This document shows, in pieces, positions 50,519 through 59,494 of a DNA stretch of 64,000 nt. The stretch comes from Pseudomonadota bacterium. Its GTDB lineage: Bacteria; Desulfobacterota; Desulfovibrionia; Desulfovibrionales; Desulfomicrobiaceae. The notes under the pieces are model-generated. The model had not been told where the DNA came from. It searched no databases and saw only the letters and a program-made list of their open reading frames with translations. The DNA is taken from contig JAHIQM010000007.1 in assembly GCA_018902545.1 (NCBI GenBank), positions 124,001 through 188,000 of the forward strand. Direction: 5' to 3'. A program made the translations under genes and the position numbers. How positions within the stretch are numbered: position 1 is the stretch's first letter; every line of letters starts with the position of its first letter.

Positions 50519-50917
50519 TCAGGCCCTGCGTCGTTCAATGAGCCTGTCGTTGAGCAGGTCGATGCTCTCCAAAAGATCTTCCACGGCACAGGGTTTGAGC
50601 AAAAAATCGTTGGCCCCGGCCCGCATGGCCTCCATGGCAATATCCGTGTGAGCATGACCGGAAAGGATGATCACGCCGAAATCATCGCCTTTGAGTTCGC
50701 GCATTCTGCGCAACACGTCCACACCATTCACGTCAGGCATCTTGACGTCAAGGACGACCATGTCCACGCAATTGTCGGCGAACCAGTCGAGGGCGGCCTG
50801 GCCGGAATTTGCCGTGACCACACTGAGTTTCTTGCGCCGCAAGTATTTGGTCAATGTGGCCAAAAAATCCTCTTCATCATCCACAAACAGAAGCCTGCAG
50901 TTTTCAAGAGAACTCAT
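50519..50917 (-). CDS. Single-domain response regulator, last gene of signalling locus 2
   Basis: 132 residues: LLFVDDEEDFLATLTKYL, Asp in MVVLDVKMPDVNGVDVL, Ser in VIILSGHAHTD, Lys in FLLKPCAVEDLL. Receiver only. It follows a membrane protein gene by 15 bp and ends the second TSUP operon. Confidence 0.92.
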   Translation of the reverse strand: MSSLENCRLLFVDDEEDFLATLTKYLRRKKLSVVTANSGQAALDWFADNCVDMVVLDVKMPDVNGVDVLRRMRELKGDDFGVIILSGHAHTDIAMEAMRAGANDFLLKPCAVEDLLESIDLLNDRLIERRRA

Positions 50918-50932
50918 GATCCCTCCATTAAT

Positions 50933-51733
50933 TCAGACATTTATGGGACAGGCAATATCCCCGAGCCTGATCGGAACATCGGTCGCAACCTGTATCGTGA
51001 TCTCGCCATCATCACACGCAACGACCAGGCCCTGACCAATGTTTCCGCGCCGAGGGTGCGTGAATCTGTATGCGGCGCCGACCACGACGGGCGGACAGCG
51101 TCTCAAGTCAACGCCAGCTTCATAATAGCCATTGACCTGTTTCAATCGGAATATTTCTCCGCACTTAAGATCAGCAAGCATGGCATGCCATTTTATTCCC
51201 AGTAGAAAATTAATTCCGGCCATCAAGAGACCGGTCAGGCCAAAAAATGCTGCCAGCAAAAAAGGTTCGATTCCTGTCCAGCGCATGACCGCTGAAGGAG
51301 AATGAGCCCGGCGATCCTCGGAATCGGCAAAGACGCGCAAGGTAAAAACCAGCGCCGGATTCTGCTTCTCGCCAAATTTGTCCCGGACCTTGAACACGTA
51401 CTCGCCGGGTTTGGGATGGGAGTTTACCAGAATGTGCCCACGCCACATCCCGCCGCCGAACATGTAGCCCGTAAACACGCCGTCAGGCACGATGCGAACG
51501 GAGCCGTCAGCCACAGCGCCCTCGATGATAAAATCCTCGATGCGGTCGGTCTTCGGCGGCATGGGACCGCTTATGGCATACCGCTCTCCGGGGATCAGGC
51601 GCACATGCCCGGAACCGCCGAAAATCCCGCCGCGCAGGCCGTCGAAAAGAATCATCAAGGCCAATGCCAGCAGAATCATCGCCGCAGTGCCGCTTGCACG
51701 CTGAAAGCGCCAAATGCGTTCGGCTCGGATCAC
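50933..51733 (-). CDS. Membrane protein of unknown function
   Basis: 266 residues. Helix 1 (TAAMILLALALMILFDGL) near the N-terminus and helix 2 (PFLLAAFFGLTGLLMAGINF, ~155-175) flank a ~125-residue extracytoplasmic domain rich in beta strands (HVRLIPGERYAISGPMPP, FKVRDKFGEKQNPALVFTLR). A ~85-residue cytoplasmic tail follows. The GTG at 51733 overlaps the upstream TGA (GTGA), so the pair is coupled. No family recognised; the plan resembles a sensor or transporter accessory. Confidence 0.65.
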   Translation of the reverse strand: MIRAERIWRFQRASGTAAMILLALALMILFDGLRGGIFGGSGHVRLIPGERYAISGPMPPKTDRIEDFIIEGAVADGSVRIVPDGVFTGYMFGGGMWRGHILVNSHPKPGEYVFKVRDKFGEKQNPALVFTLRVFADSEDRRAHSPSAVMRWTGIEPFLLAAFFGLTGLLMAGINFLLGIKWHAMLADLKCGEIFRLKQVNGYYEAGVDLRRCPPVVVGAAYRFTHPRRGNIGQGLVVACDDGEITIQVATDVPIRLGDIACPINV

Positions 51734-51963
51734 GCCGTGTCTCCGCACATGGAGTCAAAGCTGCGGCGCAGCCAGCGCTTGGCCACGAATCCCACAACCA
51801 TGATGGGCAAAAGCATCCCACCAAAAACCTTGAGGAAGACCATGGTGAATTCGTCAGGTCGTCCGGAGGCTACATACATGGCAACGGTCAGCGCCCCTAG
51901 AACCAGAACGTTGATGGAAAGGACAATAATCTTGTGCAGTAGAAAGAATTTGTATTCGCTCAT
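51730..51963 (-). CDS. Small two-helix membrane protein
   Basis: 77 residues with helices IIVLSINVLVLGALTVAMYV and LKVFGGMLLPIMVVGFVAKR. It overlaps the following membrane protein by 4 bp. No family recognised; probably a subunit of the same complex. Confidence 0.65.
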   Translation of the reverse strand: MSEYKFFLLHKIIVLSINVLVLGALTVAMYVASGRPDEFTMVFLKVFGGMLLPIMVVGFVAKRWLRRSFDSMCGDTA

Positions 51964-52031: not shown

Positions 52032-52643
52032 TTACTTCTTGAAGATGTCCGTCTTTGAGATGTTCATGAAGCGGATGGCCTTGCCTTTTTCCTTCCAGTA
52101 GATGCGCACTTCGTCGCCGGCATCCCACGTGTATTCCGGGAAGTTGAAATACTCCTCGGGTACGCTGAATGTCACAAGCAACTTCTGACGACCGGAATAG
52201 ATCGTGATGGCCTTCTTGTCCTTGTCGACCACGGGGAACTTCTTGGCTTTATTTTCGCCTTTGTCGAATACCAGGGGATGGTCCTTGGCGATGTCTTTTT
52301 GCGCATCAACGATGGTGATGGGCAAATCTTCAATCACCTGGGTGCTCGGGTTGAAGATCTTGATGATCTTGGCGTCAACATCGATCTTCATGCGCAGTCC
52401 GACCTTGGGGTCGGCGCCGCGCTCTGCCGGATCAGTGGGCATCGTGTAGGTATGCGGAGGCAGGATCGCATAGTCGGGATTCTGGGAATCCATGTTCTTG
52501 TCTTCAATGACGGTCACGGTCTGTTTGTCCATGTCGAACGCGATGACCCGTCCCTGATCGACTTTGCCATATTCATCGCAACCCAAAACCCCGAAGGTCA
52601 GTACTGCGACCATGAGCATGAAGAGAGTTCGTTTGATATTCAT
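52032..52643 (-). CDS. DUF4881-type lipoprotein
   Basis: 203 residues. A lipoprotein signal (LMVAVLTFGVLGC) puts the lipidated Cys at residue 22. The mature domain is beta-rich: GRVIAFDMDKQTVTVIEDKN, PHTYTMPTDPAERGADPKVG, VPEEYFNFPEYTWDAGDEVR. I assign DUF4881 from memory of such proteins in Desulfovibrionales; function unknown. It follows the TSUP gene by 25 bp. Confidence 0.72.
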   Translation of the reverse strand: MNIKRTLFMLMVAVLTFGVLGCDEYGKVDQGRVIAFDMDKQTVTVIEDKNMDSQNPDYAILPPHTYTMPTDPAERGADPKVGLRMKIDVDAKIIKIFNPSTQVIEDLPITIVDAQKDIAKDHPLVFDKGENKAKKFPVVDKDKKAITIYSGRQKLLVTFSVPEEYFNFPEYTWDAGDEVRIYWKEKGKAIRFMNISKTDIFKK

Positions 52644-52668: not shown

Positions 52669-53724
52669 CTAGCTCTTACGGTTCTTCGAAGCCAATTCCA
52701 TCTTCACTCCCTGGACCATGCGCACGAATATGTACGAGGACATGGCCACAACCAACCCGAGAACCAGGACCGTCGAAGCGGTATTGAGAAGGTCCTTGTA
52801 GGCGGGCAGCCAAGGCTGGACCAATTTCAGCAGAATGGACAACATGCAACCGATGACGGCCAGACCGAAGGCGATGCGGATGCCGTAGCCCTTGATGTAC
52901 TTGGTCGCAACCGCGCCGACCTGAGCGCCCATGGCCGCGCCAACAAGCATGATCATGGCCGCGACCAGCTCGGTCCGACCCTTCCAGGTGTAGGTGGCCG
53001 CACCATACAGGCCGGAGATGGCCACTTCAAAAAGGTCTGTGCCCACCGCAACGTGAGTCGGGCAACCAATCATGTAGATCAGGGCGGGCATACGGATCAG
53101 ACCGCCGCCGATACCGAGAATACCAGCGAGCCAGCCGGTGAAGAAGCTGACGAAAATAGGCAGCCAGGCGGAGCAGTATATGCCGGCTTCCTTCAGGTGG
53201 ACCATTGGGGGAATCTTGATCTTGTGCAGGGTCTTGTGCCACTCGACGCCAGTCTCAAGGCCGGTCAGCTTTTCACCACGGGCGAGGGCGGCTTTTTCCT
53301 TGGCCCTGCGCTTGGCGACATCATGAAAAACCATCCAGGCGATGAAAGCCAGTAGCCCAATGTAGATCCAGCGCACGACCTTCTCTACACTGCCGATTCG
53401 CTCCAGCCACATGACCATCTGGGCCCCGGCCTCGAAGCCGACCACCGTACCGACCAGCATGATCATACCAAGTTTGTAGTCCACGTTTCCGAACTTGCCG
53501 TGACGCATGGTTGAAATAAGCGACTTGCCGGCCATGTGCGCGATATCCGTGCCAATGGCGAAGGCCATGGGGAAGCCGAGGATGTTGAGACCGGGGGTCA
53601 CCATCCAGGCCCCGCCCATTCCAAAAAAACCGCCGATGATGCCGACACCTACGCCAAGAATGATCAGGCCGGGCCAGAAAATTTTAACGCCTGCGATGGG
53701 CATGAGGACATAGAGCCATTCCAT
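52669..53724 (-). CDS. TSUP-family (TauE/SafE) anion transporter, copy 2
   Basis: 351 residues with about eight membrane helices. The repeats read GVGIIGGFFGMGGAWMVTPG (~27-46) and FFTGWLAGILGIGGGLIRMP (~195-214). A cytoplasmic stretch of ~45 residues (KRRAKEKAALARGEKLTGLE) separates the halves, as in copy 1. The substrate may be sulfite, a sulfonate or another small anion. It follows the 99-residue membrane protein by 27 bp. Confidence 0.87.
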   Translation of the reverse strand: MEWLYVLMPIAGVKIFWPGLIILGVGVGIIGGFFGMGGAWMVTPGLNILGFPMAFAIGTDIAHMAGKSLISTMRHGKFGNVDYKLGMIMLVGTVVGFEAGAQMVMWLERIGSVEKVVRWIYIGLLAFIAWMVFHDVAKRRAKEKAALARGEKLTGLETGVEWHKTLHKIKIPPMVHLKEAGIYCSAWLPIFVSFFTGWLAGILGIGGGLIRMPALIYMIGCPTHVAVGTDLFEVAISGLYGAATYTWKGRTELVAAMIMLVGAAMGAQVGAVATKYIKGYGIRIAFGLAVIGCMLSILLKLVQPWLPAYKDLLNTASTVLVLGLVVAMSSYIFVRMVQGVKMELASKNRKS

Positions 53725-53751: not shown

Positions 53752-54051
53752 TTAGTGTTCTGCCAGATCACGGGACTTCAGATCGATTCCGATCCAGCTC
53801 ATGATAATGTCGGCGATGACGCCGAAGATCACGCCGGTGACAGGAATCAGAATGATTGTCAGGATCATGAACTGGAAATGGCTCTCGTTGTACAAGTTTG
53901 CCCACCAAGCGAGTATCCCGGTCAACTTGCGCGTGTCCGCCACCAGCACGATGGGAGCCGCACCACCACCGCCAGCGGCGAGGGCGAAGCTCGGACACAG
54001 CACGATCATTGCCATCAATGACCACCACAGCTTGCTTAATCTTGCTTTCAT
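53752..54051 (-). CDS. Small membrane protein, first gene of second TSUP operon
   Basis: 99 residues: an N-terminal signal-like helix (LWWSLMAMIVLCPSFALAA), a glycine stretch GGGGAAP, and a membrane helix FMILTIILIPVTGVIFGVIA. The ATG at 54051 has GGAGG 9 nt upstream. Its role is probably as a partner of the TSUP carrier, parallel to the 139-residue protein of locus 1, but the sequences look unrelated. Confidence 0.68.
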   Translation of the reverse strand: MKARLSKLWWSLMAMIVLCPSFALAAGGGGAAPIVLVADTRKLTGILAWWANLYNESHFQFMILTIILIPVTGVIFGVIADIIMSWIGIDLKSRDLAEH

Positions 54052-54181: not shown

Positions 54182-54197
54182 GGCAAGGAATGTGCCA
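54182..54197 (-). promoter_or_regulatory. Sigma54 (-24/-12) promoter of the second TSUP operon
   Basis: On the minus strand TGGCACA-N4-TTGCC matches the consensus with correct GG-GC spacing. The predicted start near 54170 leaves a ~120-nt leader before the ATG at 54051. The divergent gene encodes a sigma54-activator-family protein. Confidence 0.82.
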
Positions 54198-54328
54198 GGC
54201 CCATCGCGCACTTTTTTCGCCTTTTATTCTGGAGTATTAGAGATAATAATTGCGCAATATTTCGAAGCATGTTAAAAAATGCACAAAATATTTCGCATTT
54301 CAGCAGTCTTCCCAGCCAAGGAGTTCGC

Positions 54329-56932
54329 ATGCGCTACTCGTATCCGCCCATTCTGAACCCGGTCATCAACCTGGAGAAACCCATCAAGGAGTGGAGCTTC
54401 ACGCGCCTGCTGCTCCTGGTCGGCACCCCTCTGGTCGCTGCGGTCATGCTGATCATGACCGTGTCCACATACCGCATCGCCTCCCACTACCTGAACCGGG
54501 CCTATGCGAGGAACGCCCATACCAGGGCCCTGGCCCAGGCCCATGAAATCCAGCAACTCCTCGTCGAGGCCCGCTACGAAGTCCTGAACCTCGGTCACGC
54601 TGACCTGACGGTCGAGTCCATTCAAGCTTACATGATGGGCAAGCCCGCGACGAAAAGGAACCGCTACGCCGAGATAGCCTTCCATGCCGTGGATCCGGAC
54701 AAGAACTTCCTGCTCCTGAACACAGGGGAACACCTCTGGCGGGTACCGAACGACAAGGCTTCAGAAATCAAGTTTGGGACATTCACCAGAAAGGAGAAAG
54801 TCGAGGGAAAGCTGGAAGATTTCGTGCAGATCGAACCGCCAGTCCAAGTCTACTACACATCCATCCCGTACCTCGGTTCCGTAGAGAACATGGAATTTTC
54901 AGTCATTCGACTGAGTACTCCGGTCATGGACCGGGACAAGACATTCATGGGCTACCTGACGCTCTCAGTGGACATTGTCGAAATCCAGCGCGTCATGACA
55001 CTTTTCTCATCAAGGCAGTCGCCCCTGTACATCTTCCCTCAGGAAAGGGAGCGCGCCAGAAGTTTCTTCTTCGACGCCGCAGGCTGGCTCATCTGCGAGA
55101 CGGGGCCCGCGGCCACGGGACGGGCCCATATCTCCATTGACGCCATTCGCACCGGACTGCAGGGGGACATGGGCCGACCCGGCTTCGACAGCGCGTTCCG
55201 CCCCAATCCACAGTATGAAAAATACTGGGCCGCGGTCTCAGCTGTGCAGTCAGGCAAAGATGGGGAAATCGACTTTTCGAACTTTTTGAACGATCCGGCG
55301 AACACGGCCAAAGACCACTTCCTGTATTACGTGCCTATCCGGTTTCAGGAGGAGGCGGGCCGCGACCCGGCCATCCTCGGAGGCATCGGGTGCGTCGACA
55401 GCAGTTTCATGCTCAAGTCCTCGCGCTACGAGATTGCCCTGGCTCTGACCATTTCCTGGCTCGGCGCGCTTCTCCTGACCCTGGGAGCCTTCTTCTACCT
55501 CAACCGCAGGATCAGCAAACCCCTCAATATCCTCACCGTCGCCGCCGAAAAGCTGGCCCTCGGTGACGAGACGTCCACTCTCGACCTCTCTCCGCTTCCC
55601 AAGGAATTGCGCCATCTCCAGCACGCCATGAACGTTCTGCTGCTGCAGTTGCAGGCTGCGCGCAACGAGACAACACTCCGTCAAAACAAAGTTTTTGATG
55701 AAATGCAGCGTCAGCCGGTCTGTCTCGACTCCATGGTCGACGCGCTCCGCACGGAAAAATACCAGGACAATGGGGTCACATCCGGAATTGTCGGTGCCAG
55801 CCATGCCATGCGCGAACTCAATGCCATGATCCACAAGGCTTCCCAGGTCATGGCCGACGTGCTCATCATCGGGGAGACGGGGACCGGCAAGGAGCTCACG
55901 GCCGAGGCCATCCACCGCGGCAGCGCCCGAGCCAGCGGACCTTTCATTTCCATTAATTGCGGAGCTCTGGACGAAAACCTTCTGATGGATGCCCTGTTCG
56001 GCCACGTTAAAGGAGCCTTTTCCGAGGCCAAGACCGACCGCAAGGGCGCTTTTCTGGCCGCGTCGGGAGGCACACTGCACCTCGACGAGATCGGCAACGC
56101 TTCGCCCAAGGTCCAGCAGGCCATGCTTCGCGCCCTCGCGGCGCGGGTCATCCGCCCCCTTGGCAGCGACCAGGAGCAGCCCTTTGACGCGCGGGTCATC
56201 TCGGCGACCAACGTCGACCTGCTCGAATGCTCACAAAGCGGAACGTTTCGTGAAGACCTCTACTACCGTCTGGCAGTCATCACCATCACCACACCGCCTT
56301 TGCGCGACCGCAAAGAGGACATCCCCGCCCTTGTGCGCACGTTCCTCGCCGACGAGGCCCAGGGCACGGGCAAGAACCCGCCCGATCTGAGCCGGGGGGC
56401 CCTGGACAAGCTTCTGCAGTACGACTGGCCCGGCAACATTCGTGAACTGAAGAACTGCATCACCCGGGCAATGACCTTTGCCGAAGGCCAGATTCTTCTG
56501 GCTGACCACCTCGCCTTCGGCCAAACCAAGTCGTTGTCGCGCGACACCGAACTCGCACCGGTAATCCCCATTCAAAAGGGAGCAAGCGCCCCGGCCTGTT
56601 CCGACGTGGCCGCGGAGACGGAAACCCAGCCTTCGGGCATGCATCGGGACAGATCACGGCAAACCAAGACTCAATTGCGCTCGACCGCTTCCGACGATCT
56701 GCGGGGCCTCGACCTCAACCATCGGCAAAAAAAAGCCTGGCCTTCGATTGTCGCATCCGGTGGCACGAACCGTGCTTTGTATCAAAGCGCCCTTGGGGAG
56801 GAAATCTCGGTGCGCACTGCGCAATACGACTTGCAGGACATGGTCAACAAGGGCCTGTTGATCAAATCCGGCAAGGGACCTTCATCACGATATGTCGTAG
56901 CCGCTTTGAGTAATCTGCATCAGCGAGAATGA
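54329..56932 (+). CDS. Membrane-anchored sensor fused to sigma54-activator AAA+ domain (GAFSEA variant)
   Basis: 867 residues. Helix 1 (~27-48) and helix 2 (~369-390) enclose a ~320-residue extracytoplasmic sensor; a HAMP-like segment (LNRRISKPLNILTVAAEKLA) follows. The AAA+ domain has IIGETGTGKELTAEA (~512), GHVKGAFSEAKTDRKG, GTLHLDEIGNASP and FREDLYYRLAVITI. GAFSEA replaces GAFTGA. The C-terminus is a winged-helix-like RALYQSALGEEISVRTAQYD followed by LQDMVNKGLL, not a Fis-type HTH. The ATG at 54329 has AAGGAG 5 nt upstream. Signal sensing and activation appear to be combined in one protein. Confidence 0.85.
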   Translation: MRYSYPPILNPVINLEKPIKEWSFTRLLLLVGTPLVAAVMLIMTVSTYRIASHYLNRAYARNAHTRALAQAHEIQQLLVEARYEVLNLGHADLTVESIQAYMMGKPATKRNRYAEIAFHAVDPDKNFLLLNTGEHLWRVPNDKASEIKFGTFTRKEKVEGKLEDFVQIEPPVQVYYTSIPYLGSVENMEFSVIRLSTPVMDRDKTFMGYLTLSVDIVEIQRVMTLFSSRQSPLYIFPQERERARSFFFDAAGWLICETGPAATGRAHISIDAIRTGLQGDMGRPGFDSAFRPNPQYEKYWAAVSAVQSGKDGEIDFSNFLNDPANTAKDHFLYYVPIRFQEEAGRDPAILGGIGCVDSSFMLKSSRYEIALALTISWLGALLLTLGAFFYLNRRISKPLNILTVAAEKLALGDETSTLDLSPLPKELRHLQHAMNVLLLQLQAARNETTLRQNKVFDEMQRQPVCLDSMVDALRTEKYQDNGVTSGIVGASHAMRELNAMIHKASQVMADVLIIGETGTGKELTAEAIHRGSARASGPFISINCGALDENLLMDALFGHVKGAFSEAKTDRKGAFLAASGGTLHLDEIGNASPKVQQAMLRALAARVIRPLGSDQEQPFDARVISATNVDLLECSQSGTFREDLYYRLAVITITTPPLRDRKEDIPALVRTFLADEAQGTGKNPPDLSRGALDKLLQYDWPGNIRELKNCITRAMTFAEGQILLADHLAFGQTKSLSRDTELAPVIPIQKGASAPACSDVAAETETQPSGMHRDRSRQTKTQLRSTASDDLRGLDLNHRQKKAWPSIVASGGTNRALYQSALGEEISVRTAQYDLQDMVNKGLLIKSGKGPSSRYVVAALSNLHQRE

Positions 56933-56935
56933 TCC

Positions 56936-59494
56936 ATGGGATTCCGTAACTGGCTTGACGCTATTCTCACCAAAGGGCTGCCCAGGCACGATCACGATAC
57001 CGTGCTGAAATCTTTTCGCATTCAATATACGCATTTCAAGGATCTACTCCTGTCCAATGCTGAATTGGGCACGCTAATGGCCGAAATAGACGAAAAGCTT
57101 AAAGGATCCGCGTTGTTCGGCACAAGCGAAATCCGCGCACTGGCGACTCGGAGCGTCTTTCACACCATGCGCATGGTCACGGCACTGAACGTCATCTCCG
57201 GAAATCGCTACGGCATCCTTCAGGAAATGGTGGAACACATCAACGGGCGCATCTCAGGCATTCTCGACAGCAAACCTCAGCCCATCGTGGACGTCTTCAC
57301 ATATCCCCTCTCTGCGGTGGATAGAAGTCTTCTCGATATCGTCGGAGGAAAATGCGCAAACCTTGGCGAAATCCATAATCACGCAAACATTTCCACACCG
57401 GCAGGTTTCGCGATAACCACTGCCGCTTATGACGCTTTCCTGCAAACCGCAGGCTTGCGCGATGAAATCCTCAAACTTCTTCGCGAGGCGAAGCGGGAGG
57501 ATCCAGCAACCGTTGTCTCAGTGTCGGAATCCATTTTCAAGACAATCGACCAGGTCCACGTCCCCGAGCATGTCCTGCGCGCGCTGCTCGGCGAATGGGA
57601 TTCAACCTTTCACAATCCCATGTCGGTTCGGGCCGCATTGCGTTCCAGCGCCATCAGCGAAGATGGAATCCTCTCCTTTTCCGGCCAATATCGGACCATC
57701 CTCGGTGTCACCAGACAATCCTTGGAGAGCGCTTTTCGCGAAGTGCTGGCCAGCCTTTTCTCTCCCCGGGCCATCACCTACCGCATTCATCATGGCGTAT
57801 CCTTCGAGCAATGCGCCATGGGCATGGCCTGCATTGAAATGGTCGATGCCGTGGCCAGCGGGATCATTTTCTCCCGCCACCCCGTCAATCCGCTCTCCGA
57901 TGAAATGGTCCTGAACGCCATCTGGGGCCTGGGCGCCTATGCCGTGGATGGAATCATCGAACCAGACACGTGGCAGATCAAACCAACTCCTGTACCGACG
58001 ATCTCTTCGCAGCATGTTGCCTACAAACGAGTAAAACTGATTTCCGACGCCAAGGGCAAACATGAGGAGGCGGTGCCGGAAGCAATGCGAGCCGTGCCGT
58101 GTCTGAAAACAGAACAGGTTCTGGAGCTGGCGGCAATCGCAGCCAGGCTCGAAGCGCATTACCATCACCCCCAGGACATCGAATGGGCTCTGAATACGAA
58201 AGGTCAGATCATGATCCTGCAAAGCAGGCCCATGCGACTCGCGAGCGTCCATCACGACGGCCTGGCGACGACGGCCATCGAAGGCGCCGAACTCCTGCTT
58301 GAAAATGCCGACATCGCCTGTTCCGGCATCGGCACGGGACAAGCGGTCCTGGCCACCGTTCTGAAGGATCTCTCCGATTTTCCCGAAAACGGCATTCTGG
58401 TCGCGCCGCACTCCCTGCCCAACTATGTCCTGGTCATGAACAGGGCGCAGGCCATAGTCACCGAGGCAGGCAGCATCACCGGCCACATGGCCTCTCTGGC
58501 CCGCGAATTCAACGTCCCGACAATACTCAATGCCAAGCATGCAACGACGCGCATCACCAATGGCCAGACTCTGACCGTGGACGCCATCACAGGCCGGGTC
58601 TATGCTGGCATGGTCGAGGAGCTCATGGCTTTCAAATCCGCGAACACATTCAAGATCGCCGACACGCCCGTGCATGCCACCCTTCGGCAGGTCGCGGACC
58701 AGATCATCCCCTTGCACCTGCTCGACCCCAAGTCTGCCCTGTTTCGCCCGGAATCCTGCACCACGCTGCATGATGTCATGCGATTCGTGCATGAACTTTG
58801 TTACACGGAAATGTTCCGCCTCAGCGACCGCGCTTCCGATGCCGGATCCGTGTCCTGCCAGCTCAAGGCCAAACTGCCCATCGACCTGCATCTCATCGAC
58901 TTAGGCGGAGGGCTGAAAGATGCCGACGGCCCCTATGCATATCCCGAGCAGATCACTTCGGAGCCCCTGTCCGCGCTGCTGTCCGGCATGCTGCGCCCTG
59001 AAGTGCATGTGCGAGGCCCCAGACCGATCAACGTGGGAGGCTTTCTCTCCGTCATGAGCCAGCACTTGCTCGAACCGCCCACGGTCCAGGCGCAACGATT
59101 CGGTGAACGCAGTTATGGCATCATCTCCGACAAATACCTCAATTTCAGCTCCCGCGTCGGCTATCATTACAGTGTAATCGATGCCTATTGCGGAGAAACC
59201 GTTTCCAAAAATTACATCACGTTCCAATTCAAGGGCGGCGCGGCGGACGAAATCCGCCGCGAACGCCGAGTCCGCTGCATCGCTGAAATTCTCGGTCGCC
59301 TGGGTTTTGTCACCGATGTTCGCGGAGACATGGCACAGGCCAGATTCCAGAAGTACGCACGGGAAGAGATCCGCGATCGTCTGGACCAACTGGGCCGACT
59401 GCTCATCGTCACCCGGCAGATGGACATGCTCATGACCAGCGAAACCGCTGTAAAGACCATGGCCGACAATTTCATGGCCGGAGACTATCATTAG
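56936..59494 (+). CDS. PEP-synthase/PPDK-like protein lacking the C-terminal PEP/pyruvate barrel
   Basis: 852 residues. After a ~120-residue N-terminal helical part, an ATP-grasp region of the PPDK N-domain type is seen: VGGKCANLGEIHNHANISTP (~138), then VRAALRSSAISEDGILSFSG and IIFSRHPVNPLSDEMVLNAI. The swivelling phosphohistidine domain has TEAGSITGHMASLAREFNVP (~510-529, with His). The last ~290 residues do not resemble the TIM barrel of PEP synthase. It may phosphorylate another substrate, as rifampin phosphotransferase-like proteins do. It starts 3 bp after the activator gene. Confidence 0.78.
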   Translation: MGFRNWLDAILTKGLPRHDHDTVLKSFRIQYTHFKDLLLSNAELGTLMAEIDEKLKGSALFGTSEIRALATRSVFHTMRMVTALNVISGNRYGILQEMVEHINGRISGILDSKPQPIVDVFTYPLSAVDRSLLDIVGGKCANLGEIHNHANISTPAGFAITTAAYDAFLQTAGLRDEILKLLREAKREDPATVVSVSESIFKTIDQVHVPEHVLRALLGEWDSTFHNPMSVRAALRSSAISEDGILSFSGQYRTILGVTRQSLESAFREVLASLFSPRAITYRIHHGVSFEQCAMGMACIEMVDAVASGIIFSRHPVNPLSDEMVLNAIWGLGAYAVDGIIEPDTWQIKPTPVPTISSQHVAYKRVKLISDAKGKHEEAVPEAMRAVPCLKTEQVLELAAIAARLEAHYHHPQDIEWALNTKGQIMILQSRPMRLASVHHDGLATTAIEGAELLLENADIACSGIGTGQAVLATVLKDLSDFPENGILVAPHSLPNYVLVMNRAQAIVTEAGSITGHMASLAREFNVPTILNAKHATTRITNGQTLTVDAITGRVYAGMVEELMAFKSANTFKIADTPVHATLRQVADQIIPLHLLDPKSALFRPESCTTLHDVMRFVHELCYTEMFRLSDRASDAGSVSCQLKAKLPIDLHLIDLGGGLKDADGPYAYPEQITSEPLSALLSGMLRPEVHVRGPRPINVGGFLSVMSQHLLEPPTVQAQRFGERSYGIISDKYLNFSSRVGYHYSVIDAYCGETVSKNYITFQFKGGAADEIRRERRVRCIAEILGRLGFVTDVRGDMAQARFQKYAREEIRDRLDQLGRLLIVTRQMDMLMTSETAVKTMADNFMAGDYH

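Follow-up and report, generated by a model that had tools for sequence, protein, structure and literature searches.

The gene at 54329..56932 on the plus strand of the window (the whole 64-kb stretch of DNA analyzed here) was identified by its ORF, Pfam matches and homologues as encoding a one-component sigma54 activator of the DVU0151 family with a length of 867 aa. The protein probably acts as a one-component sigma54 activator that is tethered to the membrane, gated by a ligand and directed at the divergently oriented TSUP operon (rough probability 0.77). This reading builds on the observed architecture, a conserved loop, intact ATPase residues, a conserved promoter, enriched candidate sites and conserved synteny.

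The start codon was assigned to the ATG at 54329, which has an AAGGAG motif approximately 5 nt on its 5′ side, and the stop codon is the TGA at 56930-56932. A longer mechanical ORF opens at 53801; the methionine at 54329 is the start in the homologues. The domain order was found to be a transmembrane (TM) helix, an extracytoplasmic dCache-type domain of about 320 aa, a second TM helix, a HAMP linker, an AAA+ domain and a winged helix. An earlier note on this DNA had read sensor, HAMP, AAA+ with GAFSEA and winged helix as parts of one chain, which was borne out by Pfam, hydropathy and an AlphaFold model. Among plasmid relatives, the best cover 33-43% of the activator length, over the AAA+ part, and none covers more than 80%. 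A search for viral relatives of the activator returned none.

For the loop, residue and topology counts, 60 family members were read together with their surroundings. The two TM helices were predicted by hydropathy at aa 27-45 (54407..54463, plus strand) and aa 369-387 (55433..55489, plus strand); both are kept in homologues and the pair is present in 58 of the 60. Given these positions, about 323 residues would lie outside the membrane, which agrees with the extracytoplasmic sensor of ~320 residues proposed before. From hydropathy, the activator is thus predicted to be an integral inner-membrane protein with the two helices flanking the sensor.

The extracytoplasmic region (aa 46-368; 54464..55432, plus strand) was analyzed by Pfam and Foldseek. 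Pfam dCache_1 matched 9 of 15 divergent family members scanned, with a best E value of 4.1e-9; the score of the window protein itself (E 0.012-0.04) was under the cut-off. The AlphaFold model of the sensor (four sequences) had a mean pLDDT of 51, half 1 being better and half 2 poor. Using this model, the best PDB matches in Foldseek were the dCache-type sensors TlpA, CqsR and KinD; a PDB profile search with the sensor gave nothing meaningful, so that the helpful result came from the fold search. Based on the homologue matches and Foldseek, the domain can be assigned to the dCache type with fair, not full, confidence. TlpA, CqsR and KinD are chemoreceptors or kinases, which share the extracytoplasmic fold but carry a chemotaxis domain or kinase output instead of an AAA+ activator. 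The HAMP linker (aa 391-442; 55499..55654, plus strand) matched Pfam PF00672 over the cut-off (E 2.3e-7).

The sigma54 AAA+ domain (Pfam PF00158, Sigma54_activat, E 1.3e-58) was located at aa 487-653 (55787..56287, plus strand), followed by the AAA+ lid (Pfam PF25601) at aa 659-731 (56303..56521, plus strand). The Walker A lysine, the switch asparagine, the Walker B Asp-Glu, both arginine fingers and the sensor-II arginine were kept in all 60 homologues. Residue positions are given in PspF numbering, for which the PspF sequence was verified against 2vii. PspF of Escherichia coli has the AAA+ domain in common with the window protein, with identical ATPase residues at the checked positions, whereas it has no sensor domain, carries GAFTGA and possesses E97 and R131, whose counterparts in the DVU0151 family are mostly hydrophobic and proline, respectively. 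Position 95 is alanine in 60 of 60 members, and position 97 is mostly leucine or valine and never glutamate, the residue mostly found in other activators. Position 125 is serine or alanine compared to glutamine or glutamate elsewhere, and position 131 is proline in 60 of 60 members and never arginine, while other activators have arginine or proline. Judged from sequence, these family changes map to the base of L1 and to the L2 region. A nucleotide-dependent contact between E97 and R131 of PspF has been described in work on NorR (PMC2941729).

The L1 loop GAFSEA was found at aa 562-567 (56012..56029, plus strand) and the family consensus is GA[FY][ST][ED]A. The variants were GAFTEA (31 homologues), GAFSEA (25), GAFSDA (2) and GAYTEA (2), whereas 78 of 88 other sigma54 activators have glycine as the fifth loop residue and none has glutamate. 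The parsed activators of the own genome (a few were not parsed) are nearly all without TM helices, and mostly have GAFTGA-like loops and Fis-like ends. In NorR, the loop glycine was replaced by each of the 19 other residues; the Asp and Asn variants were fully constitutive and the protein with Glu at the fifth position was non-functional (PMC2941729). Since Glu at the same position kills NorR, activity of the GAFSEA loop cannot be assumed.

At the C-terminus, a winged helix was determined at aa 790-862 (56696..56914, plus strand). Its AlphaFold model had a pLDDT of 86 with the order H-H-H-E-E, and its structural neighbours are winged helices, including the Fic protein C-terminal domain and DIP2311. 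No Fis-type HTH was found in the activator, and the winged-helix, non-Fis end read from the sequence before is in agreement with both the model and its neighbours.

The closest published counterpart is DVU0151 of Desulfovibrio vulgaris Hildenborough, which has been described as a single-component regulator with GAFSEA and without a Fis domain (Kazakov and others 2015, PMC4641369). Its target, assigned by comparative genomics, is the divergent sigma54-dependent DVU0150-DVU0146 operon with the function "transmembrane transport", and a winged-helix match was reported for DVU0151 orthologues of other Desulfovibrionales, among them Dbac_2039 (PMC4641369), which belongs to Desulfomicrobium baculatum by its tag. 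For the N-terminus, a long conserved region possibly holding unknown sensing domains was described; the main text mentions neither TM helices nor dCache or HAMP for DVU0151 (PMC4641369). The window protein shows the GAF[ST]EA loop, the C-terminal winged helix and the divergent DVU0150-TSUP operon of the family; it is likewise a one-component protein with GAFSEA and differs from DVU0151 in species. From synteny and the shared features, it is apparently an orthologue of DVU0151. Since these features were published in 2015, the system is known and the window protein adds one more member to a family already in the literature. The unusual loop and non-Fis end pointed out in the earlier note are real, but neither is new (PMC4641369). 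The statement of the note that activators mostly depend on a separate kinase was overstated, as 15 of 37 sigma54 activators of D. vulgaris are one-component (PMC4641369). Like the window protein, NorR of E. coli is a sigma54 activator of the one-component type whose gene is divergent from the operon it controls, but it has a GAF sensor and GAFTGA and is not membrane-bound. No membrane-bound sigma54 activator was evident from titles in the open-licence literature.

Among the 297 genomes of the class, 100 contain a match to the window protein with an E value of 1e-150 or lower; in the phylum at large, family members are sparser. The DVU0150 gene is also present in 95 of these 100 genomes (uncorrected for relatedness). 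A further 39 genomes have DVU0150 without a strong activator match; a weaker family member was found in 26 of them, many adjoining DVU0150.

The divergent operon on the minus strand starts with a DVU0150-family small membrane protein (53752..54051; NCBIfam NF040783), followed by a TSUP (TauE/SafE) anion transporter (52669..53724; Pfam PF01925, E 4.7e-42), a DUF4881 lipoprotein (DVU0147-like, 52032..52643; Pfam PF16222) and a DVU0146-like membrane protein (50933..51748), which was assigned by position and homologues and has no Pfam match. A stand-alone response-regulator receiver protein (DVU0145-like, 50519-50917) lies at the far end of the operon. The divergent DVU0150-family, TSUP and DUF4881 genes are conserved in most of the 60 loci read. 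In genome G146 (locus L190), a chemoreceptor gene is divergent to the activator gene and lies between it and the DVU0150-TSUP genes.

For this operon, a −24/−12 sigma54 promoter with perfect consensus, TGGCACATTCCTTGC, was identified on the minus strand at 54183..54197. It is conserved in homologous loci and is the only perfect sigma54 match within the 64-kb window, which upholds the promoter and the sigma54 link suggested before. Of the 60 loci, 57 have a divergent site that matches 9-10 of the 10 consensus bases and two others reach 8 of 10, whereas shuffled sequence attains 9 consensus bases in 0.7%. The distance of this site to the activator gene start ranges between 40 and 420 bp with a median of 131 bp.

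A candidate activator site, the palindrome TTGCGCAA, was found at 54250..54257, about 58 bp upstream of the −24 element. A second putative site, TGCACAAAATATTTCGCAT, was read directly from the sequence at 54280..54298; it contains AATATTTCG (54287-54295), which repeats a copy at 54256-54264, 31 bp apart. Between activator gene and promoter, TTGCGCAA-type sites are approximately sevenfold enriched: TTGCGC/GCGCAA was observed 134 times compared to 19.8 expected from dinucleotide shuffles (largest shuffle 33), and the palindrome occurs in 22 of 59 intergenic regions compared to 0.97 expected, with the loci being related and the counts not independent. In the window taken as a whole, TTGCGCAA shows no enrichment, and the assignment as an activator site therefore rests on the comparison of loci. 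The upstream sequences of three loci (L154, L159 and L168) contain TTTGCCGTTAT, which suggests a different operator there.

Several loci differ in the genes around the activator. In L151 and L161 (likewise L159 and L168 by position), the family member faces a dCache histidine kinase and not the TSUP operon; loci of this type keep the conserved sigma54 site. In Desulfobulbus elongatus (L011), the activator is 48% identical and the divergent TSUP operon is present with an 88% identical TSUP protein; no clear sigma54 site was found at the same place as elsewhere, and a horizontal transfer of this activator/TSUP locus is possible. The own genome holds a paralogue in L180 (G000:C12:82000-96000, about L180:4682-7267), which is 37% identical, has the loop GAFTDG and is the only other protein of the same architecture among the parsed activators. 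Its gene faces those of a CBS protein and a Na/sulfate-type symporter in divergent orientation; the surroundings also include two receiver proteins and a dCache histidine kinase.

In the proposed mechanism, a small ligand would bind to the extracytoplasmic dCache domain of the inner-membrane-anchored activator, and the signal would run via TM helix 2 and the HAMP linker to the cytoplasmic AAA+ domains, which could then assemble into an active ring. The winged helix would hold the activator at TTGCGCAA-type sites, most of which are located upstream of the divergent −24/−12 promoter at a distance of 40-120 bp. At the promoter, the ring with its GAFSEA loop would remodel the sigma54-RNA polymerase and turn on the operon that encodes the small membrane protein, TSUP transporter and lipoprotein. 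The membrane location, the ligand gating, the DNA binding at these sites and the activation itself are predictions of this scheme. ToxR/CadC-type regulators combine a membrane sensor and a DNA-binding domain in one chain, without an AAA+ ring and without working through sigma54. The earlier note raised the fair question of how sigma54 is contacted from a membrane-bound ring. Comparable to the ToxR/CadC-type regulators, the winged helix together with the variable linker of ~55 residues after the lid could bring the DNA to the membrane.

The main competing explanation is that the loop glutamate has uncoupled the ring from sigma54, so that the protein, bound to the intergenic DNA, would repress or regulate independently of sigma54, with the promoter being driven by another activator. 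The dead NorR Glu variant (PMC2941729), the failure of most GAFTGA mutants and the alterations at the L1 base and in the L2 region of the family all fit this explanation. It nevertheless appears unlikely, as all ATPase and R-finger residues are kept in 60 of 60 members, unlike in decayed activators, and the rest of the loop varies among these 60 only by the conservative F/Y and S/T exchanges. In addition, nearly all loci combine the gene with a near-perfect sigma54 promoter, also where paralogues have other targets, and GAFSEA was judged compatible with activation by the authors of the 2015 study, natural loop variants being accepted (PMC4641369).

Still less probable is a sigma54 activator with the downstream gene or its own operon as main target. 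The co-directional PEP-synthase-like gene (56936..59494, plus strand; Pfam PPDK_N and PEP-utilizers) starts 3 nt past the activator stop and adjoins the activator gene in most loci, which speaks for such a target. Most loci, however, are without a strong sense-orientation sigma54 site upstream of the activator, and the 8-of-10 matches in the window and in one relative (L009) are the divergent site itself, read from its palindromic back. The encoded protein has ATP-binding and phospho-histidine domains and long extra ends with no match for the PEP/pyruvate domain, and may phosphorylate another substrate. The idea that the loop is a sequencing error, which the earlier note had tied to homologues all having GAFTGA, or a chance variant of one genome, is refuted and has a negligible probability, as GAFTGA was found in 0 of 60 homologues across many genera, the fifth residue is Glu in 58 and Asp in 2, and no supporting point was found.

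The activation of the TSUP operon by a membrane-tethered activator is thus the favored reading, and it leaves a conflict concerning the loop. Since the glutamate fixed in the family inactivates NorR, either the surrounding changes compensate for it or activation differs. A rather doubtful, though conceivable, extension is that the DVU0151 family forms a distinct membrane-tethered class, in which the Glu would work only with the family L1/L2 residues, the sigma54 contact would be modified and the DNA sites would be membrane-held. Beyond the 2015 study, this analysis adds the membrane topology and the dCache assignment, shows that the acidic loop residue is invariant across the family and goes along with further changes, and brings out the disagreement with the NorR mutant. 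The loop Glu alongside a sigma54 promoter is a testable question and not a demonstrated novelty.

Few replacements are tolerated at the second glycine of GAFTGA. A large family keeping Glu at this position beside a near-perfect sigma54 promoter is a natural test of the L1-sigma54 contact and of compensating residues. Furthermore, the DVU0151 family appears to couple a ligand on the outer side of the membrane straight to a sigma54 ring within the cell, without a kinase.
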